Positions 32,605-49,240 of a DNA stretch of 64,000 bases are shown in pieces; position 1 is the first letter of the stretch, and the number at the start of each line of letters is the position of its first letter. Where the stretch lies: contig NC_014098.1 in NCBI RefSeq assembly GCF_000092905.1, positions 2,666,001-2,730,000 on the forward strand, in the 5' to 3' direction. Origin of the DNA: Kyrpidia tusciae DSM 2912 (GTDB taxonomy: Bacteria; Bacillota; Bacilli; Kyrpidiales; Kyrpidiaceae). The position numbers were made by a program, and so were the translations under genes. The notes under the pieces were generated by a model. The model was not told the origin of the DNA, did no database searches, and was given only the letters and a program-made list of their open reading frames with translations.

Positions 32605-33465
32605 ATGGAAGACGCTGTCATCCTGGACGGGGTCTGCAAAACGTTCCGGGGATTTCGGCTGGAGAACGTATCATTTTCGATCAAAAAAGGGTATATCACC
32701 GGGTTCATCGGGCCCAACGGCTCCGGCAAGACGACGACGATCAAGCTGATCATGAACCTGCTGCACCCGGATGCGGGTACGATTCGAAGGTTCGGACAGA
32801 ACGATCTCCGCAACAACAGAACCGTCATGAACCGCATCGGCTTCGTCTACGCCGAACCGCCTTTTTACGACGATTTAACCGTGGAACAGGTGAAAACGGT
32901 TGTCGCGGCCTTTTACTCCAAGTGGGATGAAACGGCGTACCGGCGCTACCGGGATGCCTTTGAAGTCCCCGGGGATCGCAAGATCAAAGCCCTGTCCACC
33001 GGTATGAAAATGAAATTTTCCATTGCCCTGGCGTTGTCTCATCATGCGGACCTCATTCTCATGGACGAGCCGACGTCCGGCCTCGATCCGGTCATTCGCC
33101 GCGAGATCCTGGAGCTTCTGTCCGAGGTGATCCAGGACGAAGAAAAAGCGATCTTTTTCTCCACCCATATCACCACGGACCTCGAGCGGATCGCCGACTA
33201 TCTGATTTTTATCCACCGCGGCCGGATCGTGTACAGCGGGGAAAAAGATCGGCTGCTGGAAGCGTACCGGGTGGTCAAAGGGCCCAGGGAGATCCTGACG
33301 CCGGGCGTCAAGCGGATATTGATCGGACTCCGGGAAACCGGGGTAGGCTTCGAGGGCTTGGCCCCCACCGACTCAGTACCGGCGCTCGGCAAACAGGTCC
33401 TGGCGGAGCCGCCCTCACTGGACGACATTATGCTCTACACGGTGAAGGGGGAGCCCCATGCGTAG
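32605..33465 (+). CDS. ABC transporter ATP-binding protein (YtrB-like)
   Basis: 286 residues. Walker A GPNGSGKTTT, signature ALSTGMKMKFSIALAL (degenerate LSGGQ), Walker B LILMDEPTSGLDP and H-loop FFSTHITTDLERIADYL. A C-terminal extension of about 80 residues follows the nucleotide-binding domain, as in ABC-2-type exporters. It overlaps the permease gene by 8 bp. The substrate is unknown; related modules respond to cell-envelope stress or export small compounds. Confidence 0.88.
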   Translation: MEDAVILDGVCKTFRGFRLENVSFSIKKGYITGFIGPNGSGKTTTIKLIMNLLHPDAGTIRRFGQNDLRNNRTVMNRIGFVYAEPPFYDDLTVEQVKTVVAAFYSKWDETAYRRYRDAFEVPGDRKIKALSTGMKMKFSIALALSHHADLILMDEPTSGLDPVIRREILELLSEVIQDEEKAIFFSTHITTDLERIADYLIFIHRGRIVYSGEKDRLLEAYRVVKGPREILTPGVKRILIGLRETGVGFEGLAPTDSVPALGKQVLAEPPSLDDIMLYTVKGEPHA

Positions 33466-34108
33466 CTTTTTGGTGAAAGACCTCATCATGTACCGAAAAA
33501 TTCTTGCCTTCAATGTCCTGGCAATCCTGATCTTGTGTGCGTTATCCCGTTACCCATCTACAGACGCCCTCGGGATCATCGTCTGGACAGGGGGGTTTAT
33601 GATGCAATGTATCCAGGTGGATTCCCGGGGCCGCGCCGATGTCCTGTTGAACAGCCTGCCGGTCACCCGGCGCTCCATGGTTGTCGTTCGGTACCTCGAG
33701 CCGGTGGTTTTCGGTATCTTTGGGTTCCTTCTTGTGGATTTGGCGGCGGCGGCCGCTGTAACCTTTCGTTTTCCGTTGTTCCAGCCCATGGGTTGGATCC
33801 ACTTGGGCGGCATTGTCATCGGGGCGGCCGTGTGGTCGATTGTGATGTTGCCCATCTACTACTGGCTCGGTCCGGCATTTATACAGTATTTGGTCTTTGT
33901 GTTCGCTTTCGTCTTTTCAGCAGCCGCAGTAGTAGTGCGGAGCCTCGGCGCTTTACACGCCGTCGCCCCCGAGCCTATCCCTTCGTTTGTACACGCCATG
34001 GCCATGGGAAACGCCGGCGCGTGGTTACCGGCCTTGGTGGTGACGGCGGTGCTGTATGCCGCCTCTTTGGCGCTGTCTGTCCGCCTATACGAGAGGTGGG
34101 AGTTTTAG
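33458..34108 (+). CDS. ABC-2-type transporter permease
   Basis: 216 residues with about six hydrophobic helices, starting MRSFLVKDLIMYRKILAFNV. The DSRGRADVLLNSLPVTRRSM segment between helices 2 and 3 is typical of ABC2_membrane_5-type permeases. It pairs with the ATPase encoded upstream. The segment right after its stop holds a Cas gene relic on the opposite strand. Confidence 0.82.
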   Translation: MRSFLVKDLIMYRKILAFNVLAILILCALSRYPSTDALGIIVWTGGFMMQCIQVDSRGRADVLLNSLPVTRRSMVVVRYLEPVVFGIFGFLLVDLAAAAAVTFRFPLFQPMGWIHLGGIVIGAAVWSIVMLPIYYWLGPAFIQYLVFVFAFVFSAAAVVVRSLGALHAVAPEPIPSFVHAMAMGNAGAWLPALVVTAVLYAASLALSVRLYERWEF

Positions 34109-34149
34109 GCGCGCATGGAGGCCCCCGGCGGGCCCATCTGTGCCCCGGC

Positions 34150-34415
34150 ATGTTATCTTCAGATTTATCCATGATGTGGCTCAATGTGCGCACGAGGCCG
34201 GCGTCCCGCACCTCGTCCACCATGCATTCGCATACCGATTTTTGCACCCATTGGCCGACGCGCTGACAGGACTGGTTCAGTTGCCGCAGCCGCTTCTGCC
34301 CGCCCTTGGTGTCGGTGTAAATGTCGTATCGTGTCTTCCCATCCCCCAAGATCACGGAAGACAACGTGTCGCCGTCCCACACCTCCCAGCGGCTCGGCTC
34401 GACGTCTGCCCAAGC
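34150..34415 (-). pseudogene. Relic joining a cas3 fragment to a cas2 fragment
   Basis: On the minus strand the first part reads VEPSRWEVWDGDTLSSVILG then DGK, closely matching the C-terminal part of the local Cas3 (VDPNQRW...VWDGDSLPSVTLEDGK). The frame then runs directly into YDIYTDTKGGQKRLRQL and CQRVGQWVQKSVCECMVDEV, with LVRTLSHIMDKSEDN, which matches the local Cas2 from its sixth residue on. After SEDN the similarity stops. So a deletion has fused the end of one cas3 to the start of a cas2, removing everything between and the Cas2 N- and C-termini. It is divergent enough to derive from a second type I-G locus rather than a recent copy. Not expected to be functional. Confidence 0.8.
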
Positions 34416-34439
34416 GTGGGGGAATCACAAACAAAAATG

Positions 34440-34464
34440 TTAACACGTATTAAATACGTGTTAA
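34440..34464. promoter_or_regulatory. 25-bp perfect palindrome, likely hicAB operator
   Basis: TTAACACGTATT, one A, then AATACGTGTTAA form a perfect inverted repeat 26 bp upstream of the hicA remnant. Antitoxins of the HicB type bind such palindromes to repress their operon, so this is probably the HicB binding site. A TAAAAT-like -10 overlaps its right end. Confidence 0.65.
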
Positions 34465-34490
34465 AATAAAATTGAAGGGAGTGATTCCAG

Positions 34491-34613
34491 ATACCCCCAT
34501 CATCAAGAGAGGTTATCAAGAAAGGCAAGGTCACCGTCCAGCATCCGGTAAATAACTTGAAAAAGGGAGTCATCAAAAGCATCGAACGGCAATCCGGTGT
34601 CAAGCTCCTGTAA
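34491..34613 (+). pseudogene. hicA: Defective HicA toxin gene
   Basis: In one frame from ATA (34491) to TAA (34613) the sequence reads PPSSREVIK then KKGKVTVQHPVNNLKKGVIK and SIERQSGVKLL. The first block is the N-terminus of HicA toxins and the second is the C-terminal half; the segment between them, including the dsRBD-like GSHxxY/F region with the catalytic His, is missing. The position where ATG is expected is ATA, with a suitable GGGAG upstream. So the gene has lost its start codon and about 25 internal codons while staying in frame. The antitoxin gene downstream is intact. Confidence 0.72.
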
Positions 34614-34656
34614 CCCCGGGCCTTCCCTTCAATTTCGCCCCAAAGGAGTGTGCACG

Positions 34657-35091
34657 ATGAAGAAAGACATCTACGTTTATCCAGCTGTTTTCCACTACGA
34701 CGAACATCCGGGAATCGGTGTCACCTTCCCGGATCTGCCGGGGTGTGTTTCCCATGGAGATGATGAAGACCACGCTTACCAGATGGCCCAAGAAGCGTTG
34801 GGACTCCACCTTTACGAAATGGAAAAGGACGGAGACGAAATTCCGGAGCCCACTCCCGTGAAAGACCTCCGTCTCGAAGAATACTTGGAGGATGGAGAAA
34901 AAGGCGTTGTCGTGTTGGTCAGCGTCTCCATGGGTCCAGTTCGCAAGGAACTGGATGCGCGATCCGTCAAGAAAACCCTGACCATCCCCAAGTGGCTCAA
35001 TGACGCGGCGGAGAAAGAAGGGGTCAACTTCTCCCAGGTCCTTCAGTATGCACTCAAAGAGCAACTTGGTTTCACTGACAAGGGTCATTAA
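34657..35091 (+). CDS. hicB: HicB-family antitoxin (toxin partner degraded)
   Basis: 144 residues from ATG 34657 after AAAGGAGTG. The N-terminal HicB domain is YVYPAVFHYDEHPGIGVTF then PDLPGCVSHGDDEDHAYQMA and QEALGLHL; the C-terminal DNA-binding part includes SVKKTLTIPKWLNDAAEKEG and VNFSQVLQYALKEQLGF, a ribbon-helix-helix. It would neutralise HicA and repress the operon through the palindrome at 34440. With hicA broken it is an orphan antitoxin that might act on a related HicA. A strong terminator follows. Confidence 0.88.
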   Translation: MKKDIYVYPAVFHYDEHPGIGVTFPDLPGCVSHGDDEDHAYQMAQEALGLHLYEMEKDGDEIPEPTPVKDLRLEEYLEDGEKGVVVLVSVSMGPVRKELDARSVKKTLTIPKWLNDAAEKEGVNFSQVLQYALKEQLGFTDKGH

Positions 35092-35095
35092 CAGG

Positions 35096-35125
35096 AAAGG
35101 CCCCGATTGAATCCGGGGCCTTTTT
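35096..35125 (+). terminator. Rho-independent terminator after hicB
   Basis: AAAGGCCCCG and CGGGGCCTTT form a 10-bp stem with an 8-base loop, followed by a T run. It begins four bases after the hicB stop. Confidence 0.88.
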
Positions 35126-35253
35126 CCCTGTTCGAAAAGCGGAAGACCAATGGCCTGCACGGGCATATGAGCCCCCTCACGACTCACGCAACCTCGATGA
35201 TCGGTCCATTCCACGTGATCGTGATCACACGATTTATACCCCCGCCAATTCGG

Positions 35254-35290
35254 CATCATTCCAGGTTCGCGCACCCTGATCGAACGTTTC
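35254..35290 (-). other. Orphan CRISPR leader fragment
   Basis: CATCATTCCAGGTTCGCGCA followed by a GATCGAA match is nearly the same as the distal part of the leaders of array 1 (39237 on) and array 2 (49199 on), in the same orientation. In those leaders GGTTCGC lies about 170 bp from the first repeat. Here that distance would fall at about 35094, exactly where hicB and its terminator end. No repeats are present. It lies just downstream of cas2, so a lost third array is likely. Confidence 0.6.
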
Positions 35291-35494
35291 GACGGAATCC
35301 GGCCCCGCCGAGAAACTCGGTGCCGATCAGCTCCTGGCCGTGCTTGCGCCTGTACCTGAGCAAGGAATTTTGAAAGGCGGGAGGCGGCGCAGCGGCCGAG
35401 CCCGGACGTCCCGCGGTGGTCCGCGTGCGGAACTGCTCGGCGCCCACATCCGCGATCCGCTCTTAGCACCGCCGCTGCCTGTCTCGGTTTCGGC

Positions 35495-35785
35495 TCACAG
35501 AATCAATGGATCCTCGAAATTCACCGCGGAACTGCGGCCCAGTTGTACGATGTTCCGGGGGCGCTGTTCACCCAGGCAGTAGATGCGGATGTTGTCCTCG
35601 GATTTATCCATAATTCTGCTCAATGTGCGCACCAGGCCGACAAACCGGACCTCATCCAGCGTACATTCAAAAACGGATTTTTGCACCCGCTGCCCCACCC
35701 GTTGACAAGCCTGGGCCACCTTCCGCAATCGTTTTTGCCCCGCCTTGGTATCGGTGCAGATATCATAAGCAACCAGGACAAACAT
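35495..35785 (-). CDS. cas2: CRISPR adaptation endoribonuclease-fold protein Cas2
   Basis: 96 residues. MFVLVAYDICTDTKAGQKRL has the first-strand Asp of Cas2; next come QRVGQRVQKSVFECTLDEV and IMDKSEDNIRIYCLGEQ. Cas2 forms the Cas1-Cas2 integrase that inserts new spacers next to the leader. Size and pattern are complete. It lies 12 bp after cas1 on the same strand. Confidence 0.95.
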   Translation of the reverse strand: MFVLVAYDICTDTKAGQKRLRKVAQACQRVGQRVQKSVFECTLDEVRFVGLVRTLSRIMDKSEDNIRIYCLGEQRPRNIVQLGRSSAVNFEDPLIL

Positions 35786-35797
35786 GGGCCTCTCCTT

Positions 35798-36913
35798 TCA
35801 CCGGTAGAAAAATGGAACATACACGGCATCGCTCCGGATGGCCCGGGCCATCAGACGAGCCTGAATGTAAGGCAGCATCGCAAATGTCACCGTGCGTTTG
35901 AAGAGGGGGTGGCGGCAAGTATCCTGTTTGCGCCGTTGATAGGCATCCAAAACCGTTTTCCGCCCGGCTTCGTTCAGCATCACCCCGCCGCCCGGCAGGT
36001 GGTTAAAATCGCGTTCACTGAGTTGTCTGCGGTTGATGAGCGTCATGGCTGCCCGGTCCGCCAAAACCGGCCGCAACTCTTCCATGAGATCGAGCGCCAT
36101 GGCGGGGCGGCCCGGCCGCAATGCATGGAGATAGCCGATTTGAGGATCCAGTCCCGCGGTTTCCGCCGCCGACACACAGTCGTGAACCAACAGGGTGTAG
36201 AGAAAGGACAGTAAAGCGTTGACGGGATCCCGAGGAGGACGTCGGGTCCGACCGGAGAATTCCCACGTTTCCGCACCTTTCAGCGGGCGGGGGAATTGGG
36301 CAAAATACCGTTTGGCATTGATGCCTTCGATTCCCCGCAGCGTCTCCAGATCGGTCACCTTCGGCAACCGGCGCAAATCCCGGGCGATTTCCGCCGCCGT
36401 CTCTTGTAATTCGGCCCGTGCAACATCGTCGGAAGTGTCCCTGGCCGCCCGGAGTAAGACATGACGGCTGTTATGCAATTTACCGGCCAGAACGGCTTGA
36501 ACGATGGGGACAGATTTTTCGGAGTCATGAAGAACACGGTGTTGAGCAATGCGCAACAAGACGTTTCCCGACCGTCGCCCCTCGATGCGGTAGAGGAACT
36601 TACCGCGGGAGTTCAGGACAACCACCGCCCGGCCGTCCTCCGCGCACCGGGCCAACAACGGGCTGGTTAAGGACACCCGGCCGAGGGTCACGATCCCTTG
36701 GAGGTGATGCAGCGGGACCCGCAGGCTGGCGGCCGCGGCATCACCGGCTCGGGAGCGACGCTGTTCGGGATCGGCACCCGGCCTTGCAGCTTCGCCTGCT
36801 GTGCCGCCGTCACCCGCCGCGGAGGTCCTGTTCTTGGCGCTCAGCATGACCACAACATTATCGTGATCGAGCCTCAGCACGGCACCATCTGTCTGGACGT
36901 ACAGAATATTCAT
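35798..36913 (-). CDS. cas1: CRISPR integrase Cas1 (with an unusual insertion)
   Basis: 371 residues from the ATG of MNILYVQTDGAVLRLDHDN, preceded by AGGA. The fold is clear: SLRVPLHHLQGIVTLGRVSL, LRGIEGINAKRYFAQFPRPL with the first catalytic Glu, DPVNALLSFLYTLLVHDCVS, GLDPQIGYLHALRPGRPAMA with the catalytic His, and LDLMEELRPVLADR. Between MLSAKNR and LRVPLHHL is about 35 extra residues rich in Gly, Ala, Arg and Glu, where related Cas1 proteins have only a short turn. In many type I-G loci cas4 and cas1 are fused; here they are separate with about 31 bp between them. Confidence 0.94.
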   Translation of the reverse strand: MNILYVQTDGAVLRLDHDNVVVMLSAKNRTSAAGDGGTAGEAARPGADPEQRRSRAGDAAAASLRVPLHHLQGIVTLGRVSLTSPLLARCAEDGRAVVVLNSRGKFLYRIEGRRSGNVLLRIAQHRVLHDSEKSVPIVQAVLAGKLHNSRHVLLRAARDTSDDVARAELQETAAEIARDLRRLPKVTDLETLRGIEGINAKRYFAQFPRPLKGAETWEFSGRTRRPPRDPVNALLSFLYTLLVHDCVSAAETAGLDPQIGYLHALRPGRPAMALDLMEELRPVLADRAAMTLINRRQLSERDFNHLPGGGVMLNEAGRKTVLDAYQRRKQDTCRHPLFKRTVTFAMLPYIQARLMARAIRSDAVYVPFFYR

Positions 36914-36944
36914 GGCTTCCTGAACCAAAGCGCATGCTCTCCTT

Positions 36945-37670
36945 TCACCCTCGGGACTCCGCCGCCTGGACGTCAGCCGAGGGTTCCCCTGAATCCATCC
37001 CGATGCTTCCCTTCTCTTCCCAAACAGCGTGCCGAGCCGGGGGCCAATCGGACCAGTTCTCCGGTATATGCCCGTCCGTAGCCTCCGGAAGGCAAATGGC
37101 TTGTAAAGAGCAATGACGACACCGCGCGTCGTTCACAGCCCGGGGAAGCTCGCCCGATCGAGCGGTGCGGCGGATTGCCTCAATGACCTCCACAACCCGT
37201 CTGCGTAAAGGTTCATCCAATACCACTTCCCGCCGATGACGCGATTGAATGTGGTAGATCGCACCCCGCCGCACAGGCACACCGAACATTTCTTCCAGAC
37301 AGAGGGCCTGGCCGCAGAGTTGGAGCTCGTCGTGGACGGACGATCTGAGTCTTCCGTGCTTGAACTCAACCGGGAACGGCACACCGCCCCGAATCTCCAC
37401 CCGGTCACATCGTCCCGCCAGCCCGTACTGATCGGATCAGACCGCCAGGGCCGTCAACACCTCCACATCTTCCTGAGACCGCTTCCCCTCTTCATCCACG
37501 CGCTCATGCCCCCATCTTCCCTTCGCCGTGTAAACATTCTCTTGCCAAGCTTGTTCAACATGGATCAGCGCAAATTGACGGGGACAATAGCTGTAGTGTT
37601 GTAAAGCCGACAACGGCACAATATCCTCATCTTCCCACTCCAACCGCCGTCCATGGGAAAATAGTTCCAC
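36945..37670 (-). pseudogene. cas4: Cas4 with an in-frame TGA stop
   Basis: The frame encodes MELFSHGRRLEWEDEDIVPL then SALQHYSYCPRQFALIHVEQ (first iron-sulfur Cys) and up to VEVLTALAV, where codon 78 is TGA (37437-37439). Without a shift of frame it continues SDQYGLAGRCDRVEIRGGVP and FPVEFKHGRL (nuclease core Glu/Lys), and ends near RCRHCSLQAICLP with the remaining three cysteines. Family members have Trp in AxWSDxxGL, so TGG to TGA is the simplest change. Cas4 trims and orients prespacers. It is either inactivated, read through, or a sequencing error. The rest of the protein shows no decay, which suggests a recent mutation. Confidence 0.85.
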
Positions 37671-37852
37671 ATGTCACCCCTCCCGCCCCACCGATGAATC
37701 TCGTCGATCCTTGCACCTACTATTGTGCACAGAATTCCGTCAGGTTAGACGTGCTCATGGAGTGACAAATGCAATTCTTCTCAAGAAAGGGCTTGCACCG
37801 GTCGCCTGACAACGACTTGGGTCGAGCCCGAGATCAACATCGATAAACACGT

Positions 37853-39077
37853 CCTTCAACGGGGCCGCGGGGTGAACCCGCGGAGTCACCCCAAGCTGCC
37901 GAGCTGGAAGAGGTTTTGCGGATGGAGCCTTCAACGGGGCCGCGGGGTGAACCCGCGGAGTCACACCTCGACGCAGCAGGGCCTGTGAAAGGGGTGATGG
38001 ATCCTTCAACGGGGCCGCGGGGTGAACCCGCGGAGTCACGCCCGAACCGATGGCCGAGATGGAGGAAAAACCGAACCTTCAACGGGGCCGCGGGGTGAAC
38101 CCGCGGAGTCACGCTCATGACTCGGGATGAATTCGTGCGGGACGTGTTCATCCTTCAACGGGGCCGCGGGGTGAACCCGCGGAGTCACTCAGGATGCGAC
38201 GCACTTCAAGGTTGCGAGACTTATGCCCTTCAACGGGGCCGCGGGGTGAACCCGCGGAGTCACACGACCAGTGTAGCCGACGCGACGCCGATGGACGTGA
38301 ACCCTTCAACGGGGCCGCGGGGTGAACCCGCGGAGTCACGGAGATTCAGGGGGTGATCGCCGCTGAACATCGTTCCCCTTCAACGGGGCCGCGGGGTGAA
38401 CCCGCGGAGTCACAACGTCCAAGGCCGTAACGTTGAGCATCTCCTTGGTCCTTCAACGGGGCCGCGGGGTGAACCCGCGGAGTCACTCCACCAGCACGTC
38501 CGGAGTCGTGAACAGGTACGTCGTCCTTCAACGGGGCCGCGGGGTGAACCCGCGGAGTCACGGAATCACTCCTCCCTGCCATTCGGCCATGAGACCCCTT
38601 CAACGGGGCCGCGGGGTGAACCCGCGGAGTCACGAAATCGGCGTGGCTGGTGCTCCAGTCCACGACCGACAGCCTTCAACGGGGCCGCGGGGTGAACCCG
38701 CGGAGTCACAGCCGTGCAATCTGTTACTGACTGCACTGATCCAATTGTTCCTTCAACGGGGCCGCGGGGTGAACCCGCGGAGTCACCGCAGATGCTGGTC
38801 TACAACAAAGCGAAGACGATGCTCCTTCAACGGGGCCGCGGGGTGAACCCGCGGAGTCACTCTGCACGAATTGCCTGGCCGGAACGACATGCTACCCTTC
38901 AACGGGGCCGCGGGGTGAACCCGCGGAGTCACAGCGGCGTCATCGGTCGACGCCAAAATGTCAGTCAGCCTTCAACGGGGCCGCGGGGTGAACCCGCGGA
39001 GTCACGGGACAAGGCCACACATCATTCGTCCGAGAACAAACCTTCAACGGGGCCGCGGGGTGAACCCGCGGAGTCAC
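37853..39077 (-). CRISPR. CRISPR array 1: 17 identical 37-bp repeats, 16 spacers
   Basis: On the plus strand each repeat begins CCTTCAACGGGGCCGCGG and ends CCCGCGGAGTCAC. All 17 copies appear identical, with spacers of 35-40 bp. The leader is on the right, so transcription is on the minus strand, where the repeat starts GTGACTCC and ends CCCCGTTGAAGG. It can form a hairpin CCGCGGG-loop-CCCGCGG. The array lies between csb2 and cas4, inside the minus-strand cas gene series. The plus-strand reading of repeats as Pro/Gly/Arg peptides is not a gene. Confidence 0.99.
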
Positions 39078-39270
39078 TCTTCCTCTCCAAGCCCTTGTAC
39101 AACAAGGCTTAACGTGCGCTTTTTCGCGAACCTCCCGTTGGACGGGTTTGTACGCGACCAACTCCCACTTCCGAGTTACTCGATACTCCCATCTTATCAA
39201 AGAAAACGGGTTATCGCGAACCTCCCGCATTCACGGCATCACTACAGGTTCGCGCAACATCGGGAACCGG
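39078..39270 (-). promoter_or_regulatory. Leader of CRISPR array 1
   Basis: It shares ordered blocks with the leader of array 2 at nearly the same distance from the last repeat: TTTCGCGAACCTC (45 bp away in both), ATCGCGAACC (136 bp in both) and CAGGTTCGCGCA (about 170 bp). GCGAACC appears twice directly and once inverted, suggesting binding sites for a protein involved in transcription or spacer integration. The remaining bases to csb2 (39271-39442) hold nothing recognisable. Confidence 0.75.
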
Positions 39271-39442
39271 TATCATGAGGGGCATTTTCCCGAAAGGCGA
39301 CAACAACCGGCAATTCGAACCCGGTGTGCTTCATCAAGTCCGCGCTCACCTCCGCAGGTGTTCGCGACTCGCCAGTCCGGCCACCGCAGCCCCTTGCTTC
39401 GAATTTCCAAATTGCAGGAAGCTGATCCGCCCCCGGTCAACC

Positions 39443-41062
39443 TTAAAACCCGGATTCACCGTTGCGGTCCCCTTGCCCGTTCTCAGACGGCACCGGTCGC
39501 TCGGGAATAAACAGTCCCAAACCATAGTGACACCCATACCCGAACGCCAACGGTCCCGCCACCGGCTCCGGGAACTCCACCCGATAGAATCCCCCCTGTC
39601 GATCCGGTTGATTTTGCGATCTTCCCCCACTTCGAAAGCGGCGGAATTGAACCGTGGTCACCGGCCGGGAGCCGACCTGCACAAACGGTTTCCATTCCAC
39701 GGAGAGCGGTTCCGGTAGTCCCCGGAGGCGAATCTCTTTGCGCAATTGTTCCTTCCTTCCGAATCGCCCGCCCTTCTTCTGAAACCACGGATGCAGGTAC
39801 GGGGTCGCCGACTCCCATACCCGAGACGGTCCGAACAGAGATGAAACAACATTCCCGGCGCCCGTCTCACCTGGATGCGATCCAACGCCTTCCAGGAAAA
39901 CCCTCCATTCCTGTTCCCCTGTGTACAATTTGATCAACGATTGCAATGCTGCCCCCACCGTCTCCGGAAGCGGATCCGCGCAGTATAGCAACAGATGGTC
40001 CACGCGCCCGTCCCGGTCTGCGTCCTCCGGGAGAAAGAATGCATGGCGGTGGCTGTCCGCGAGGACCCGGCGGTTATCGTCCCGTCCGGTGATCAAAGAA
40101 GGGGCGTCGGCATCGAGAAGACGGAGAAGGGCGCGGCGAAACAGTTCACCCACGGCCACCGCATCCAACTGACTCGGCAGCGGCTTCCCCGCCAGAGCAA
40201 ACCGCGCCGCATGGATGGGCCCGGTGCCCCACCCACCGAAGGTCTCGGGGGTAAACTCCGGCACAAAACAGTTGTACGGCCGAAGATAGGTCACCTTGCA
40301 GCTCCCGGGCGGCTGATTCCAGCCCCCCTGCTCGAGATCCGACGTATCCACGGCCAACGCATCGAACAACCGCTCGGGAATGTGGAGGGACCGCCGGCGT
40401 CCCCGTCCCCGGGCCCCGCCGCGGTTCACCTGCGCTCCCTCTAAAACCCCGTCCCTCCACGCCGAAAACCGATCCTCGGTCTGCACCGCCATCACTGTTA
40501 CCGGCTCCATGGCCTCGGGGGATCTGGCGAACACCGTTTCTTGATCGGCCGGGTAACAGTTCGCCGTACCGTCCCAGGGAACCAGCCGGGCTTCCACCCA
40601 GCTTTCACTCCGCCCCAGATAGCCCACATGTGGCAGCAACCCGTCAAGAAGACACCATTCTCCGGCACTCAGCGTCACACCCGGCCAAGCCATGATCACC
40701 CGGTCCTCCGGGCGAATTCGCACGAACGCGTCGAAAACCAGAGATGTTTTGCCCCCGGCACCGGGCATGTAATGGCGAGTGTGTCCTCGACTGACTCTCG
40801 GGAGATAATAAACGGGAAACACGGAGGCCAATTTTAAAATCAACTGTTCAAAGCTCGCCTCGGGACGGCCTTCCTCCACTGCGATTCCCGGGTCCGCCAA
40901 TACCAATCGGCGCTTGGCAAACCACGTCGCCTGCAGGCTGCGAAGAAGGCGCCAGGGTGACGGAGGCCATTCGACCTCTCCCTCGTTCACATGCCGTCCC
41001 CACGGGTTCGCGTGATACAACCCCGCCGGAAACCGAAAAGCCATGGCCCACCGCTCTTCCAT
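39443..41062 (-). CDS. csb2: Csb2 (GSU0054 family; Cas5-Cas6 fusion of type I-G)
   Basis: 539 residues, beginning MEERWAMAFRFPAGLYHANP and continuing WGRHVNEGEVEWPPSPWRLL, the hallmark start of Csb2. In type I-G, Csb2 combines a Cas5-like RAMP and a Cas6-like crRNA-processing domain. The C-terminal half contains PVAGPLAFGYGCHYGLGLF, a Gly-rich RAMP loop. It processes the repeats and caps the crRNA 5' end in the effector complex. It begins 14 bp after csb1 and is followed by the leader of array 1. The second ATG (residue 7) could be the real start. Confidence 0.92.
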   Translation of the reverse strand: MEERWAMAFRFPAGLYHANPWGRHVNEGEVEWPPSPWRLLRSLQATWFAKRRLVLADPGIAVEEGRPEASFEQLILKLASVFPVYYLPRVSRGHTRHYMPGAGGKTSLVFDAFVRIRPEDRVIMAWPGVTLSAGEWCLLDGLLPHVGYLGRSESWVEARLVPWDGTANCYPADQETVFARSPEAMEPVTVMAVQTEDRFSAWRDGVLEGAQVNRGGARGRGRRRSLHIPERLFDALAVDTSDLEQGGWNQPPGSCKVTYLRPYNCFVPEFTPETFGGWGTGPIHAARFALAGKPLPSQLDAVAVGELFRRALLRLLDADAPSLITGRDDNRRVLADSHRHAFFLPEDADRDGRVDHLLLYCADPLPETVGAALQSLIKLYTGEQEWRVFLEGVGSHPGETGAGNVVSSLFGPSRVWESATPYLHPWFQKKGGRFGRKEQLRKEIRLRGLPEPLSVEWKPFVQVGSRPVTTVQFRRFRSGGRSQNQPDRQGGFYRVEFPEPVAGPLAFGYGCHYGLGLFIPERPVPSENGQGDRNGESGF

Positions 41063-41076
41063 GTGAATCCCACCCC

Positions 41077-42093
<1,017 letters not shown>

Positions 42094-44322
42094 TCACGGG
42101 AGAATCCCGGGCTGCGCCGCCTCCGCCCCGGTTTCCGACGTGAGTCCGGCCAGTTGCGCCAGTTGTCGCAGATCGCGGTCGGCAATCGGCAATGCCAGAG
42201 CCGCAAGGATTCGCGTACCGGTTCGCTGCGGGTTGCCCGCGGTCCAGTGGTTCACCCGAGGCAGGGAGCCCTTTCGGAAAAAAGGACTGGAGAATCCACT
42301 GCCCCGGAGCCGTTGCTCGGCCACGCCCGCCGCCCGGTTGAGTTCCCCCGCGGCCAGCAGTGAAAGCATCCGGTCGGGCACCGGCAGCGGCATCGCACCG
42401 GGAAAAACCCGCTGCAACTGAGCGTTCGGCGCGCTGATCAGCCTGGCCAGGATATAAGCCCAGGGCAAAGGCGTCATGGACCGGTGGAATCGGAACCCCG
42501 GGGACCCCGAGCTTCGAACCTCGTCGGAGGCCACGGATCTATAGAGAGGCAACAAGCCCCAGATCAGATCGGCAACCCGGGCATCCCAACCGGGATCTTT
42601 TAAGAACTGCCCAATGAGCGACAATGGCACCGTTCGCGGCCCCGCGGTGGGTTTATCGAACTCGTCCGTCGATATCGCAGCACTTCCCGCGTTCTCTCCG
42701 CCTCCGACACTTCGATGGGTTTCCAACAACCGCCGGCGCAGCACCGCCGCCATGTTGGCCGCCACATCGGTGTGCTTCCAGACCACACGCGGAGGATCGG
42801 TTTCCGGACCCCACCTTCCCGGGTGCCCGGGGTCCACCGGGGACAAAAACGACCGGATCGAACCCGCGCTGCCCGGATACACGGAGACGAACGCCCCCGC
42901 AATACGAAATTCCGGGGAGCCGTCGTCGGACGCCCGCCACCAGCCGGGGTTGCGCAGCACCAGGGGAGGCACCTTCTGTCGAGCGGATGGAACACGAGCC
43001 AACAGCTGTTCGGCCCGCCCCAGGGCCACCAACACATCCTGCATCCGCCGGGCGCCCCCGTACTGACAGTAGAGGAACTCTGCCTCGCGGATCCTGTGCA
43101 GAGCGGACTGAAAGGCATGGGAGGTGTTCTCCACGCGAGCAAACAAATCCAGCCACGTGTCCAATTCCGCAAGGAGCTCCGCGTAGGCCTGTCGACGGAC
43201 GATAAACCGATTCAACGGTACGGCCAAATACGCCTTGCCGGATCGCATGAGAAAGGCGTAACGCTGAAAGCTCTCAATCCCGCGGTCCACCGCCAACGTG
43301 GCGCATGCCCGGGCAAAATCCACGCCGTTTTTCGCCGTACGCCGCACCCGGTCGCCGGAAAGCTGAGCCCGGCCTTCCCGGAAAATATACAACAGTTCCG
43401 GCAAGGACACCGGTTGCCTCCAAAGCGGCATCCACATTTCCGCCCGGGCGGCCTGCGCACCGTCCAATTCCGCCGTGGACCTGTGTCCCACCGTAGTCGG
43501 GTAAACCGTGAACGGCGCCGACACCACCGATCCGGACTGTTTCTCCAAACGCTTCGCCGCCGCTGAAGCGAAAACCAAGGCCCCCTCCAGCATGAAGATG
43601 TAATCCCACGGATTGACCAAGGACTCACCGGAGAATCCGCTGCGGGCATTCGGGCCACCGGCTTCTCCCGGGGAGAATTGCCCAATGGCTCCCCGAATCA
43701 GTTCCGGTGTCGCATCCCCCCACAGCGCCGCCCGCAGCCACATTCCGCCCGTATCCGTGGGTTGTCCGGTCTTCGGCGACATGACGTTCAGGATCCGCTG
43801 CATGAAATTGTTCGTGAACTCGAGGTTTCCATCGTTTCCTCCTGTGCCCGCGAGCGGCGGAAACCCGAGATCCCCGGTGGTCAAAACCACAGCAGCATCC
43901 ACCCAAGCAACCGCCGCATCCGGGAAGCGGTTTCGGCAGGCTTGAACCAGCGGCCGTTTGTCTTTGTTATCGGGTTTCTTCTCCAGTCCGAACTCCTTCA
44001 GAATGGCCCGGGCTGTTTGAATCGTAGTACGATATAGGTGTAATCGCTGCGTTTGCGACTCCTCAATCCCGCGCAGGGCTTCGTCTCGGCCGAAGAATCC
44101 GCTTCCCCCGTTCCACGGCGTAACCAGGGGCGTCGGCCGGTACTCCGCCAGAAAGAAAGATTCCACGTCTTGCGGATGTAACGCGGTTTCGATGTGAAAT
44201 CGTTCGTCCTCCCACCATCCCCTTGCCTCGGGATCCGCCTGCTCGGCCAGGATGCGAAAAACGCCCAACGCCTTCAGGTAGTGAGACAACGGCTGAGGAG
44301 CTGTCCCGGTTAGGGAAATCAC
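42094..44322 (-). CDS. csx17: Csx17 (Cas8-like large subunit of type I-G)
   Basis: 742 residues from a GTG at 44322 overlapping the cas3 stop. The start VISLTGTAPQPLSHYLKALG is typical of Csx17, as are TPWNGGSGFFG, GALVFASAAAKRLEK, WMPLWRQPVSLPELLYIFRE and the C-terminal ALALPIADRDLRQLAQL. It is the signature large subunit of type I-G effector complexes, thought to recognise the PAM and recruit Cas3. The reading is intact, with GEAGGPNARSGFSGESLVNPWD in the middle region. Confidence 0.94.
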   Translation of the reverse strand: MISLTGTAPQPLSHYLKALGVFRILAEQADPEARGWWEDERFHIETALHPQDVESFFLAEYRPTPLVTPWNGGSGFFGRDEALRGIEESQTQRLHLYRTTIQTARAILKEFGLEKKPDNKDKRPLVQACRNRFPDAAVAWVDAAVVLTTGDLGFPPLAGTGGNDGNLEFTNNFMQRILNVMSPKTGQPTDTGGMWLRAALWGDATPELIRGAIGQFSPGEAGGPNARSGFSGESLVNPWDYIFMLEGALVFASAAAKRLEKQSGSVVSAPFTVYPTTVGHRSTAELDGAQAARAEMWMPLWRQPVSLPELLYIFREGRAQLSGDRVRRTAKNGVDFARACATLAVDRGIESFQRYAFLMRSGKAYLAVPLNRFIVRRQAYAELLAELDTWLDLFARVENTSHAFQSALHRIREAEFLYCQYGGARRMQDVLVALGRAEQLLARVPSARQKVPPLVLRNPGWWRASDDGSPEFRIAGAFVSVYPGSAGSIRSFLSPVDPGHPGRWGPETDPPRVVWKHTDVAANMAAVLRRRLLETHRSVGGGENAGSAAISTDEFDKPTAGPRTVPLSLIGQFLKDPGWDARVADLIWGLLPLYRSVASDEVRSSGSPGFRFHRSMTPLPWAYILARLISAPNAQLQRVFPGAMPLPVPDRMLSLLAAGELNRAAGVAEQRLRGSGFSSPFFRKGSLPRVNHWTAGNPQRTGTRILAALALPIADRDLRQLAQLAGLTSETGAEAAQPGILP

Positions 44323-46943
44323 GACACATGCACCTCCGCTTCGGACCCGCGCCAATCGGCCACACGGAGCAACATCTCCAAAAAAGCGAGCCGAAATGGT
44401 CCGTACTCGTTGAGCAAGCCCATCGCGCGATGGAGCCAACTTTCCCCCCACGGGCCTCGTCCCAAAAGCATCCAGCCCAACCGTAATGGAGTGGGCGGCA
44501 AGACTTTCCCGTCCTCCAACGTCACCGACGGCAGGGAGTCACCGTCCCAGACGCCCCGGGCAAACAACCATCGCTGATTGGGATCGACCGGGGGCGGAAC
44601 CTCATCCGGCAGCGATCGAATCGACATGCGGATCTTCCCGTGGTGGGCGGCAATCAAATACGCGGCCAGATCCCGGAGGCCGTTCGGCCGCTCCGGATCA
44701 TGAAATTGGAGGTACGACAGGGCGGAGGCGAGTTCGTGGCGAAAATGACGTCGGGATGGTTCACTTTGCCGAACCTGTTGTCCCTCTCCGTCACCGGGCG
44801 GTTCGACCCCCCGGACCTGTCCCCCGACCTGCGGCTCCGAAGCCTCAGTGCCGGTGCGCGGCGGCTGGCCCGATTTCGCCCAAAGCGATCGCCTCACCGG
44901 ATCTGTGGCCGGTAATCCGGCCAACAACCGCTCTTGGAAGACCGGGTGTGCCTTGCCGACGTCATGCCACCCGGCGGCTTCCACCACGGCCGAAAGCAGC
45001 CTGGAGGGCACCGTGCCCTCAAAGTGGTCCACCAGGCGCTCGGCCGCCTCCCGCACATGTTTCAAATGATCCGTGAGCAGCACAAACGAGCCCGGGTAGC
45101 TGTTCGGGTCGTCGGTGTCGGACTGTTCCTCACCGCCCGCAACGGTAGCCCGGGATCGGGACCCCGATTCATCGGCGACAGGGATCACCGGGACCGGTTC
45201 CCAGCTTCCGGGATCGAATCCGATGTCCGGGCGATAACCACCCAGAGCGGCATCCAGGAGAAAAACCCGACCCGGAACAGGGTTTTTCTCCTGAAAGTTC
45301 GTCCAGGTTCCGGTTAACCAATCCCAGGTCCAAACCCGATCCCTCCGCGTCCGATTGTCCTTCTTGGCGACGAGGTACTCTCGCATGGCGGACAGAGAGA
45401 CGCTGCAGATCTCGTCCCTTCGCGCGGGCCAATCGATCGCCGACGGGGCCGCCCCGACGTTTCGCCAGTACACCTGGACGTCCGTATCCGACACGTCCCG
45501 GACATACGGGGAAACATCCAGATCCAAACCGGCCAGATCCGGGGTGGTATCGAACAGGTCCAACAGGTCCCTGCGCCGCAAAACCTGACCGTCCGGGCGG
45601 GACATCGCCCAGGTCGGCAGAGAAGCCGGCCCGACATCCGTCAGTTCCTGCAGTCGTTTTCTCGCCTGGGCGATTTCGTCTTGCGCATATGGCTGTGCGC
45701 ACCGGGGTTCATCTTCGAGATCAATGATCCAGACGGCGGCCCCGTCCTGTTGTCCATCAAACTCTCCCCGCCGGTTGCACCTCCCGAAACGCTGAACCAA
45801 AGAGGCCCACGGGGCCAATTCAGTGATCAACGTGCGAGCAGAAAGGTCCACCCCGGCTTCCACGGCCTGGGTCGCCACCAGGATCCCGCCTGAGGATTCG
45901 ATCTCCGGAATGGATTTCCATATCTCCTGCCGATCCTCAGGCCGAAAGCGGCTGTGCACCAGTCGAACCGGGGCTTCGGCACCCATGGCCAACAGCTGCC
46001 GATAGACTTCTTGAGCCCGATTCACGCGATTCAAAACCACCAGGGTCAGCGATCCCTCACGGTGCTGCTCCAGCGCGAGCCTGGCCAGCACCTCCGCGTA
46101 CTCCTTGGGACGGGTTGCAGTCGACGCGCTGACTGCAAAGTCGGTCCAATGCAGCCGTTTTTTGGCGGAGCGCCTTTCACGGACCACGGGATGAACGAGA
46201 TCCCGCTCATCCAATTCGAGGACGTGCAACTCCGATCGACGAGGAGCGAAATCCACCGTGTCCAGCCACTCCGCATCCAGGGTGGCGGACATCCACGTGC
46301 TGTACGCCGGGCCGTATGTACCGAATTCTCTGCGAAAGGACTCCAGTTGGGCGGTCGTATAGATTCCGCCCCCGCCCATCAACTGTACCTCGTCGTACAC
46401 CCACCAAACATCGTTGTGCAAAAGCGCAAACTCCATCGGCCACCGGCCCCGGCTCACCCCGTAGCCCCGATTCAGAGCTCTGGACAGCAACTGATCCTGC
46501 GTACCGATCAGAATCTGGTCGAGCCCAGGGTATCTCACCCAATCCCGGTCCATCCGACCGCCCATTACGATGTGCACGCCGATCGGCTCCGTTCCCGCCG
46601 GTTCAAACACCTCGCTTTGAACGGCCCCATCCCCCGGATGACCGAAAACCGGAATTCCCAGCTTGTTGAACCACCCCAGGACGTCGTCGGCCACCTGGTT
46701 CACCAACGTTCGCAACGGAAGACAGTACACCAATCTTCTGGGACAAGACCGTCGAATCTCCGGCGCCGCGTAACGCCTTTTCCACAACCAGCTCAACACC
46801 ACCGCCGCCGTCTTCCCCAGCCCCGTCGGGACCCGAATCAATCCAGGAATGTGAGCGTCCAGCGCCAAACGAACTTGATACGGAAAAGGCCTGCACCCAA
46901 CAGTCTGTCCGAATAATTCGGAGAAGGCTTCGGCATCGGCCAT
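44319..46943 (-). CDS. cas3: Cas3 with helicase first and HD nuclease at the C-terminus
   Basis: 874 residues. The superfamily 2 helicase is N-terminal: PFPYQVRLALDAHIPGLIRV then PTGLGKTAAVVLSW (Walker A), WWVYDEVQLMG (DExH-like motif II), TWMSATL (motif III), GILVATQAVEAGVDL and LVQRFGRCNRRGEFDG (motif VI). The HD nuclease follows near residues 640-800: VEAAGWHDVGKAHPVFQERL and LIAAHHGKIRMSIRSLPDE. This helicase-HD order is characteristic of type I-G, the reverse of most Cas3 proteins. A disordered linker (TGTEASEPQVGGQVRGVEPP) interrupts the HD region. Cas3 degrades target DNA after recruitment by the effector. First of the interference genes, about 40 bp after the WYL regulator stop. Confidence 0.95.
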   Translation of the reverse strand: MADAEAFSELFGQTVGCRPFPYQVRLALDAHIPGLIRVPTGLGKTAAVVLSWLWKRRYAAPEIRRSCPRRLVYCLPLRTLVNQVADDVLGWFNKLGIPVFGHPGDGAVQSEVFEPAGTEPIGVHIVMGGRMDRDWVRYPGLDQILIGTQDQLLSRALNRGYGVSRGRWPMEFALLHNDVWWVYDEVQLMGGGGIYTTAQLESFRREFGTYGPAYSTWMSATLDAEWLDTVDFAPRRSELHVLELDERDLVHPVVRERRSAKKRLHWTDFAVSASTATRPKEYAEVLARLALEQHREGSLTLVVLNRVNRAQEVYRQLLAMGAEAPVRLVHSRFRPEDRQEIWKSIPEIESSGGILVATQAVEAGVDLSARTLITELAPWASLVQRFGRCNRRGEFDGQQDGAAVWIIDLEDEPRCAQPYAQDEIAQARKRLQELTDVGPASLPTWAMSRPDGQVLRRRDLLDLFDTTPDLAGLDLDVSPYVRDVSDTDVQVYWRNVGAAPSAIDWPARRDEICSVSLSAMREYLVAKKDNRTRRDRVWTWDWLTGTWTNFQEKNPVPGRVFLLDAALGGYRPDIGFDPGSWEPVPVIPVADESGSRSRATVAGGEEQSDTDDPNSYPGSFVLLTDHLKHVREAAERLVDHFEGTVPSRLLSAVVEAAGWHDVGKAHPVFQERLLAGLPATDPVRRSLWAKSGQPPRTGTEASEPQVGGQVRGVEPPGDGEGQQVRQSEPSRRHFRHELASALSYLQFHDPERPNGLRDLAAYLIAAHHGKIRMSIRSLPDEVPPPVDPNQRWLFARGVWDGDSLPSVTLEDGKVLPPTPLRLGWMLLGRGPWGESWLHRAMGLLNEYGPFRLAFLEMLLRVADWRGSEAEVHVS

Positions 46944-46981: not shown

Positions 46982-47796
46982 TTAGCATAGCATGATTGAT
47001 GCGGAGATTGAATAATCCGCAATCCCGCAACGGAGATGGACGTCAACCTCTTCCCCCGATTCATCGATCCCCCACGCCGACTTCAGGAATTCCCGGAGCG
47101 AGAAGTTCGGGTCCCGGACGTACGTTTTCCCCAGACATTTAGCACCGTGGACGCGTACCACTTTGAAGGTCCGGAATGCCTGTCGAAGATGACAATAACC
47201 GATGATGTACAGGGAATTTTGCCAAGGAACGAGATAGTACGGATCCACCAACCGCGTCTCATGTCGGAGGGCGCCGATTTTTGTGTATTCAATCTCCAGG
47301 GTACGGGACATACGAACCGCATAGAGAATCTCGAGCACCAGACGGTCATCCGACTCTTCGAAAGAACGAGCGAGTTCCGCGATAACCCCACCTTTGGTTT
47401 GGATCGATTCACGAAGGTTTCCAGGAAACGGAAGGACGATGTCAGGCAGGAGTTTCCGAACGGCGCGCCGATATGTGGTGATCAGGGGGTGAACACGGCC
47501 GTCGGCGATAGACGCTTGAACCAGCAGCGGCATGATCTCGATGACGAATCGTTCATCCTCGGTCAAAATCCCCGGTAGGCGTTGCAGGTCTCGCAAAATA
47601 AAATAGCCGCCGCCAGGCTCTGACTCGACTCGGATACCCAGGTCCTCCACGAGGCGAATATCCCGTCGGATGGTGCGTACGGAAACGTGGCAATACTCTG
47701 CTAACGGGCCGCCGTATATTCTTTTGGATGGCTGATGATCAGGGCAACGAGGTCAAGCAGTCGACCCGCCACGCGGATGCTTTGAGATGCGGCCAT
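46982..47796 (-). pseudogene. WYL-domain transcription regulator with a one-base frameshift
   Basis: From ATG 47796 the minus strand gives MAASQSIRVAGRLLDLVALI then ISHPK, and stops soon after. One base later the HTH continues in the next frame as RIYGGPLAEYCHVSVRTIRR then DIRLVEDLGIRVESEPGGGY, followed by a full WYL domain (TLEIEYTKIGALRHETRLVD, PYYLVPWQNSLYIIGYCHLR). The shift falls at AAAA (TTTT at 47722-47725 on the plus strand); one more A would restore the frame. WYL regulators often repress type I cas operons, and this one directly precedes cas3. It may be inactive, or translated only from an internal start without the complete HTH. Confidence 0.8.
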
Positions 47797-48101
47797 ACAT
47801 CCACAGCCTTGAACAATGTCGGTCTCCCTTGACCAATCGTAGTACGGAATAGGATTGCAAATCAACGGACGTGCTCCGAATGCTAGCGGTCTTCACGGCA
47901 GATAGGATCCCGGACCGGATTTGGGCCGCCGGCCGAATCAAACTGTTTGGATGATCGACACGACAAGGCAGAACCTCGATGTGCGGGGATGTTAGAATGC
48001 ACAACTATGCGGTCGACTACGTCTACGAATCGCGGCCGGATCGCTTATACATCCACAGCCGTGACCGTTGGGGAAACGACCAGGGCTTCCGATCACCTCG
48101 A

Positions 48102-49038
48102 GCTTCCAACGGGGCCGCGGGTTCAACCCGCGGAGCTACTTTCCCGCATCCCGCCGATACCTGCACCGGGCTCATCGCTTCAACGGGGCCGCGGGTTTAA
48201 CCCGTGGAGCTACGGCCGAGTGATCGAGAACGTCTTGAACAGGAGTATGCCTTCTGCCTTCAACGGGGCCGCGAGTTCAACCCGCGGAGCTACTCTACCA
48301 GCCCATCGTCCAGTTCGATTTGCACCGTACCTTCAACGGGGCCGCGGGTTCAAACCGCGGAGATACGTCTCCAATCGGCAGGACGTCTGAGCCAAACGGA
48401 GTTTCAGGCTTCAACGGGGCCGCGGGTTCAAACCGCGGAGCTACCAGCCGCAATCCGCGCCATGTTCATTCCCCCTGTAGTCCTTCAAGGGGGCCGCGGG
48501 TTCAACCCGTGGAGCTGCCAGTGCCATAAGGACCGTCAGGCAAGGCGTGAAGAGCACAACCTTCAACGGGGCCGCGGGTTCAACCCGTGGAGCTGCCCGT
48601 ACCCTTAGGAATGTCATTCCTAACCCCCCCGCCTTCAACGGGGCCGCGGGTTCAACCCGCGGAGCTGCGTCCCAGGATCGGCTTCTGCAAGGTTGTGGAA
48701 GTCCCTTCAACGGGGCCGCGGGTTCAACCCGCGGAGCTGCGGGTGCATGCCAGCATCCACCAGGCGACCGTCAGTTCCCTTCAACGGGGCCGCGGGTTCA
48801 ACCCGCGGAGCTGCGCACGAGTACGGATACCCGACGGTGGTCGGGGCAGACGCCTTCAACGGGGCCGCGGGTTCAACCCGCGGAGCTGCGGGGGGCACGT
48901 CCCTGCCCGCTCCGACGGGGCTCACACACCTTCAACGGGGCCGCGGGTTCAACCCGCGGAGCTGCGCGGGGCGAGTGCGACCGGTGCAGGCGGTGGACGC
49001 GCCTTCAACGGGGCCGCGGGTTCAACCCGCGGAGCTGC
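48102..49038 (-). CRISPR. CRISPR array 2: 13 repeats with graded variation, 12 spacers
   Basis: On the plus strand the repeats begin CCTTCAACGGGGCCGCGG and end ACCCGCGGAGCTGC; spacers are 35-43 bp. They differ from array 1 in the loop (GGTTCAA versus GGGTGAA) and at the end (GCTGC versus GTCAC). The six rightmost copies are perfect. The five leftmost end in TAC rather than TGC and carry extra changes (inserted C at 48106, GGTTTAA at 48195, CGAGTT, CAAACC). That decay marks the left as the old end and the right as the leader side, so transcription is on the minus strand. Confidence 0.98.
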
Positions 49039-49240
49039 TCTTGGCCCGTCACGCCTTGCAAATCGCGGCATTCGGGGACATGTTTCGCGAACCTCGCAAC
49101 GAACCCGATTTCGGCCGGGCGGTTACAAAGCCTCCGCCCCTCGCATTCCCTATTATACCGGCAAAAACCGCGAATCGCGAACCCCCCGGCGAATTCTACA
49201 TCACTCCAGGTTCGCGCACACAGATCGAAGGTCCCCAAAA
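49039..49240 (-). promoter_or_regulatory. Leader of CRISPR array 2
   Basis: Contains TTTCGCGAACCTC at 49083, ATCGCGAACC at 49174 and CCAGGTTCGCGCA near 49207, the same ordered blocks as the leader of array 1, at distances from the array equal to within one base. The first 44 bases next to the array differ between the two leaders apart from TCTT. Confidence 0.75.

Follow-up and report, generated by a model that had tools for sequence, protein, structure and literature searches.

Positions 34150-34382 of the Kyrpidia tusciae DNA analyzed here (a stretch of 64,000 nucleotides, hereafter the window) probably represent the non-functional leftover of a second, diverged type I-G CRISPR-Cas locus (locus A), located between an ABC permease gene and the type I-G locus that is present today (locus B). 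The recognizable CRISPR-derived DNA at this site consists of a piece of cas3, a short filler and a piece of cas2, which lie on the minus strand in one open frame that reads VWDGDTLSSVILGDGK-TR-YDIYTDTKGGQKRLRQ... The genome of K. tusciae comprises 3,384,766 bases in one contig; in the part available, the genome paper counts four CRISPR repeats and 173 pseudogenes (PMC3236038). Among the titles listed in a literature search, none concerned the relic. An earlier note on this DNA had described a minus-strand frame that goes from a Cas3 C-terminal stretch straight into Cas2 and had given it an extent of 34150-34415. Alignments, profiles and a position matrix bear out the frame, and its start at 34150 stands, but the CRISPR-derived part stops at 34382, and positions 34383-34420 form an open stretch without similarity to Cas3. 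The features at and around the relic are as follows, where G001 denotes a second genome of the same genus:

33458-34108, plus strand: ABC-2 permease gene, a left flank common to G001, where it is adjacent to cas2
34109-34154, no strand: permease-cas2 junction, intergenic sequence ending in GGCATGTTA, common to G001
34150-34328, minus strand: cas2 relic, 59-60 codons, 59 of them at 34328-34152 (blastn, tblastn, Pfam, NCBIfam)
34329-34334, minus strand: filler at the cas3/cas2 junction, 6 bases, codons for TR (comparison with intact cas3, intact cas2 and the G001 cas3)
34335-34382, minus strand: cas3 relic, 16 codons with the C-terminal HD-side signature VWDGDTLSSVILGDGK (blastn and tblastn to intact cas3, matrix score)
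35239-35287, plus strand: orphan CRISPR leader piece TCATTCCAGGTTCGCGCA, with a motif that also occurs in each of the two array leaders

The intact locus of the window (35495-46943; cas2, cas1, cas4, array, csb2, csb1, csx17, cas3) provides the reference for these pieces. Its effector genes are those of type I-G by NCBIfam, and csb2 is described as typifying this type in the accessible part of a published account (PMC9638904). The features of this locus and of the array beyond it are:

35495-35785, minus strand: intact cas2, I-C-like family (Pfam, NCBIfam, locus comparison)
35798-36928, minus strand: intact cas1, best NCBIfam match type I-C Cas1
36945-37670, minus strand: cas4, with an in-frame TGA at 37437-37439
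37853-39079, no strand: CRISPR array 1, leader on the right, motif copy at 39239-39256
39443-41062, minus strand: csb2 (TIGR02165)
41077-42081, minus strand: csb1/cas7g (TIGR02570)
42094-44451, minus strand: csx17/cas8g1 (TIGR04113), real start probably near 44319
44319-46943, minus strand: intact cas3g (TIGR02621), the yardstick for the relic
48092-49050, no strand: CRISPR array 2, leader motif at 49201-49218

The repeat of array 2 differs from that of array 1 at 5 of 37 positions. The relic shares with the intact locus the Cas3 signature, the Cas2 family, the gene order and the strand, but it holds only two gene pieces, is diverged by approximately 25%, and has neither array nor effector genes; csb2, csb1 and cas8g, which together with cas3g identify a type I-G locus, are not found in it.

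Pairwise alignment of the relic with both intact genes, a check proposed in the earlier note, gave 35/47 identical bases against cas3 (at 44506-44552; blastn E 0.006) and 75% nucleotide identity over 179 bp against cas2 (blastn E 2e-29 within the window). For the Cas3 piece, tblastn returned an E of 0.002 with a 1.6-kb target and of 0.069 when the masked 64-kb window was searched; such plain pairwise E-values, taken alone, are weak. In aligned segments, the type I-G Cas3 relatives have (F/Y)ARG(V/I)W(D/E)GD.LP.V near the C-terminus, and the 16 residues of the relic follow the type I-G Cas3 pattern VWDGD.L..V.L.DGK. When scored with a position matrix of 11 columns, built from 50 I-G Cas3 segments of other genomes out of 83 loci examined and with the window left out, the relic reaches 24.0 bits, compared to 15.2 bits for the next-best among 2,648,882 codon positions. 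From this background, ordinary Cas3 proteins, recognized by a preceding [RCHS]G pair, had been removed, together with positions without W, G and D at columns 2, 4 and 5. The Cas3 piece is thus not a product of chance, and the doubt whether the Cas3-like stretch is significant, raised in the earlier note, is answered by the matrix score. That the resemblance is a coincidence and that a truncated cas2 alone is present would fit the modest pairwise E-values and the absence of the usual ARG before VWDGD; given the matrix scores and the position of the piece, in frame and in order beside cas2, we consider this extremely improbable. Only the VWDGDTLSSV half of the signature is present and the ARG half is absent because the piece starts at V. 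The 29-residue Cas3 piece alone has no match in NCBIfam, which is no surprise given the shortness of the query. The helicase and HD nuclease domains of a Cas3 protein are absent, with 16 residues left; these are enough to say that the DNA would derive from a type I-G cas3 gene (TIGR02621), though the relic is not itself such a gene.

The identity of the cas2 piece is supported by the Pfam Cas2 profile (PF09827; 36.8 bits, E 4.4e-9, cut-off 23.8) and by the NCBIfam cas2 profile (TIGR01573; 29.7 bits, E 5.9e-7, cut-off 24.5). It is not a complete Cas2, as both the start and the C-terminal part of such a protein are missing: the first 6 codons are replaced and the last approximately 31 are absent, with the break after SEDN. 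The 6-base filler that precedes it resembles neither the intact cas3 nor the intact cas2. A TDTK.GQ insert is found in the intact Cas2 and in the relic, and is absent from most I-G Cas2 proteins in the fetched loci. As these I-G loci use an I-C-like Cas2 family, the Cas2 piece alone is not assignable to type I-G, and the assignment of the relic follows from its Cas3 half.

The earlier note had further argued that the substitutions rule out a fresh duplication, and with approximately 25% nucleotide divergence from the intact cas2 the relic is indeed old. By the NG86 method, applied to 62 codons of which a few lie past the homology and with dS near saturation, dN and dS are 0.16 and 2.3 between the relic and the intact cas2, 0.14 and 1.75 between the relic and the G001 cas2, and 0.04 and 1.4 between the intact cas2 and that of G001. 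Third codon positions account for 17/26 of the changes specific to the relic (p 0.0008 when compared with a share of one third), indicating that it diverged mostly under selection, as a working gene. Two amino-acid substitutions in the relic (R→W and F→C) are located where the other 10 compared Cas2 proteins are identical. In a simulation, 34% of copies with 26 random changes keep the frame open, and an open frame is not strong evidence for function. The cas2 trees do not place the relic: the nucleotide and protein trees disagree, ultrafast bootstrap values on the branches beside the relic are 56-86, and relic and intact copy do not fall together. The protein tree keeps the relic, the intact cas2 and the G001 cas2 close. 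Separately, a mosaic structure of the G001 cas2 was considered and is not supported (14 relic-like versus 26 intact-like sites; maximum chi-square p 0.60).

The position of the relic can be anchored by comparison with G001, where the locus reads permease, cas2, cas1, cas4, array, csb2, csb1, csx17, cas3, DEAH helicase, WYL gene and second array, with one csx17 and one full-length I-G cas3. At the other end of the locus, G001 and the window both have a WYL gene followed by a second array, which match in place (window positions 46982-47650 and 48092-49050), and the intact locus of the window is therefore the syntenic counterpart of the G001 locus; the intact cas2 is 82% identical to G001 over 363 bases covering the gene. 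In G001, cas2 lies directly behind the same permease. The G001 locus is, however, single and without relic, and its cas1 is interrupted. In G001, 31 bases separate the permease stop from ATGTTA, after which comes the stop of cas2; in the window, approximately 42 bases, ending in GGC, lie between the permease stop and ATGTTA, which runs into the relic cas2. These matching ATGTTA junctions place the relic at the permease-cas2 boundary. In addition, G001 has two copies of ATGTT, one between the two genes and another 97 bases further along, which falls within cas2 at the codon corresponding to the break in the relic; judging by this one comparison, the two copies likely mark a microhomology deletion point that would have made the 3' end of the relic cas2. 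The order of cas3 and cas2 that the relic needs holds in the intact locus of the window and in the genomes G001, G049 and G189, whereas in G009 cas2 is located upstream of cas3 and the order does not fit.

Several differences between the two Kyrpidia loci were observed alongside. The G001 cas1 is split by an insertion of approximately 1.45 kb (L117 6065-7514), and the G001 cas4 has no stop at the site of the window TGA (37437-37439); the window gene is either broken or affected by a sequencing error. With cas1 split in one genome and cas4 stop-interrupted in the other, the adaptation genes look damaged in both loci. The WYL-domain gene upstream of cas3 in the window (46982-47650, minus strand) encodes 222 aa, compared to 342 aa with HTH and WCX domains in G001. 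Between cas3 and the WYL gene G001 has a gene for an 887-aa DEAH-box helicase (L123 616-3279), which is absent there in the window. G001 also encodes a second, distant I-G-like Cas3 (L121 2497-4974; TIGR02621 181 bits, cut-off 400), adjoining a 600-aa protein without family match.

We infer that a complete locus A once stood at the site, with the same orientation and gene order as locus B, and that it would have diverged while working. One deletion, reaching from within the C-terminal part of cas3 to the cas2 start and leaving the 6-base filler, would have taken the rest of cas3, csx17, csb1, csb2, the array, cas4 and cas1; a further short deletion, probably between the two ATGTT copies, would have taken the 3' end of cas2; and a third event may have cut or replaced everything 5' of VWDGD, where a hicAB fragment and the orphan leader piece lie now. 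The single deletion proposed in the earlier note covers only the internal cas3/cas2 junction and does not suffice, as the breaks at the cas2 3' end, the cas3/cas2 junction and the cas3 5' end imply at least three rearrangements. Its central claim, that this is the relic of a deleted second I-G locus, stands as the best reading of the joined pieces, although the complete second locus itself is unseen: it was sought in related genomes and found at this site in none of those compared (G001 has a single locus, and G002 and G003 contain no cas2 or cas3 matches). Searches of 33901-35495 by tblastn, with csb1, csb2, csx17, cas1 and cas4 as queries, yielded no convincing match (best E 0.021), no further csb2 or cas4 pieces of locus A were detected by tblastn within the window, and csx17, csb1 and the I-G cas1 are each single in the K. 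tusciae genome, so that no other piece of locus A is found. The small size of the Cas3 piece, a cas2 tree that does not place the relic and a frame that is still open count against this reading.

Near the relic, a HicB-like antitoxin gene (34480-35091, plus strand; Pfam) lies behind a hicA remnant, recognized by eye, that seems to lack its 5' half. A near-perfect palindrome at 34437-34467, between the relic and hicA, matched only its own reverse complement in a search of its own genome. The motif TCAYTNCAGGTTCGCGCA of the orphan leader has 3 copies in the K. tusciae genome and 3 in G001, with none in G002 or G003 and 0 in a reversed-pattern control. Two copies per genome are located in the two array leaders; the third is the orphan at 35256 in the window and, in G001, lies in a homologous segment of approximately 330 bases, 128 kb from the G001 locus. 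In the alignment, only the distal part of the leader is retained in the orphan. It is a second CRISPR scrap less than 0.9 kb from the relic, and it is only conceivable that it may stem from the lost locus. Beside I-G arrays the leaders follow the arrangement CGCGAACC, approximately 90 bases, CGCGAACC, approximately 33 bases, GGTTCGCG, as observed in the window (39080-39260 and 49040-49232) and in L143 (6125-6255 and 16857-16988), in arrays of Kyrpidia and G189. As a cause of deletion, self-targeting was rejected: 45 spacers (27 from the window, 18 from G001), taken from arrays cut by pattern so that a few spacers were missed, gave five short partial matches in the array-masked window and eight fetched stretches, the best being 23 bases at 91%, at 63.2 kb and outside the locus.

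Alternative explanations differ in what they make of the fused frame and of its surroundings. The 135-aa frame, which starts at the GTG at 34382, might encode a working short protein, either a Cas3-Cas2 fusion or a regulator of adaptation, as the lack of a stop and the third-position bias would allow. Nevertheless, the start and C-terminus of Cas2 are gone, residues shared by the compared relatives are changed, the tail of the frame passes through the antisense of the permease, and the bias is accounted for by the time before decay. The possibility mentioned in the earlier note, that the same fusion is conserved elsewhere as a real protein, finds no support either: Cas2 matches occur in 66/398 genomes of the class, the Cas3 half is covered only by the window's own copy, and among the matches listed every other genome's Cas2 match starts at residue 17 or later. 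The fusion is thus absent from all 397 other genomes, as well as from the 86 fetched loci, where no match starts before residue 15, and the conservation expected of a functional fusion protein is not observed. In type I-F systems, a functional fusion carries Cas2 N-terminal to a full Cas3; the relic similarly has both domains in one frame, but with a 16-residue Cas3 piece ahead of a truncated Cas2. From its sequence, a working protein appears very unlikely and no activity would be expected, with no cas2 start, the C-terminal third of Cas2 missing and changes at residues that relatives share. Less easily dismissed, though still unlikely, is that the scrap is a short piece brought in by a mobile element or through illegitimate recombination, and that a complete second locus never stood here. 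The surroundings are indeed rich in junctions, with the truncated hicA, a hicB-end/leader segment that is located 128 kb away in G001 and an ABC-permease deletion in G001, but the relic is joined to the permease in the way that cas2 is in G001, with GGCATGTTA common to both, and its orientation and gene order are still those of a complete locus.

Other alternatives accept that locus A was complete. It could have been a tandem duplicate of the present locus within the Kyrpidia lineage, one copy of which decayed; this variant differs from the main reading solely in where locus A came from (a paralog of locus B versus a separate acquisition). The same Cas2 family, the same order, the adjacent position and the closeness of relic, intact and G001 proteins in the protein tree speak for it, yet the 75% identity between relic and intact cas2 is below the 82% between intact and G001 cas2, and the two copies within the window do not group together. 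We regard it as somewhat doubtful on balance, and it may hold if the duplication preceded speciation or if the relic changed rapidly. A more elaborate scenario, which we consider rather improbable, starts from a Kyrpidia ancestor with two tandem I-G loci and separate arrays: in K. tusciae locus A would have been gutted, leaving its array, with a divergent repeat, as array 2, served by locus B, and the tandem in G001 would have collapsed when one cas2 gene recombined with the other. Such recombination would account for a difference between the genomes that ends precisely at the stop codon of cas2, but G001 also has an array at the position of array 2, with a repeat nearly the same as that of its array 1, and the negative mosaic test of the G001 cas2 speaks against the scenario as well.

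Degenerate or remnant cas loci, with truncated cas genes in open or broken frames beside an intact system, are a familiar phenomenon. The relic is clearly a decayed cas locus of this known kind, and its fate is fairly ordinary gene decay; like other remnants it consists of truncated cas genes next to an intact system, but it differs in that pieces from both operon ends are fused in frame and that the site is anchored by synteny. For annotation it serves as a warning against taking the 135-aa open frame for a gene. While no new mechanism is revealed, the relic, the orphan leader, the stop-interrupted cas4 and the interrupted cas1 of the sister species illustrate the decay of such loci, and the leftover of locus A provides a position-anchored trace of CRISPR locus turnover in a species that has one I-G system now and probably had a second before.
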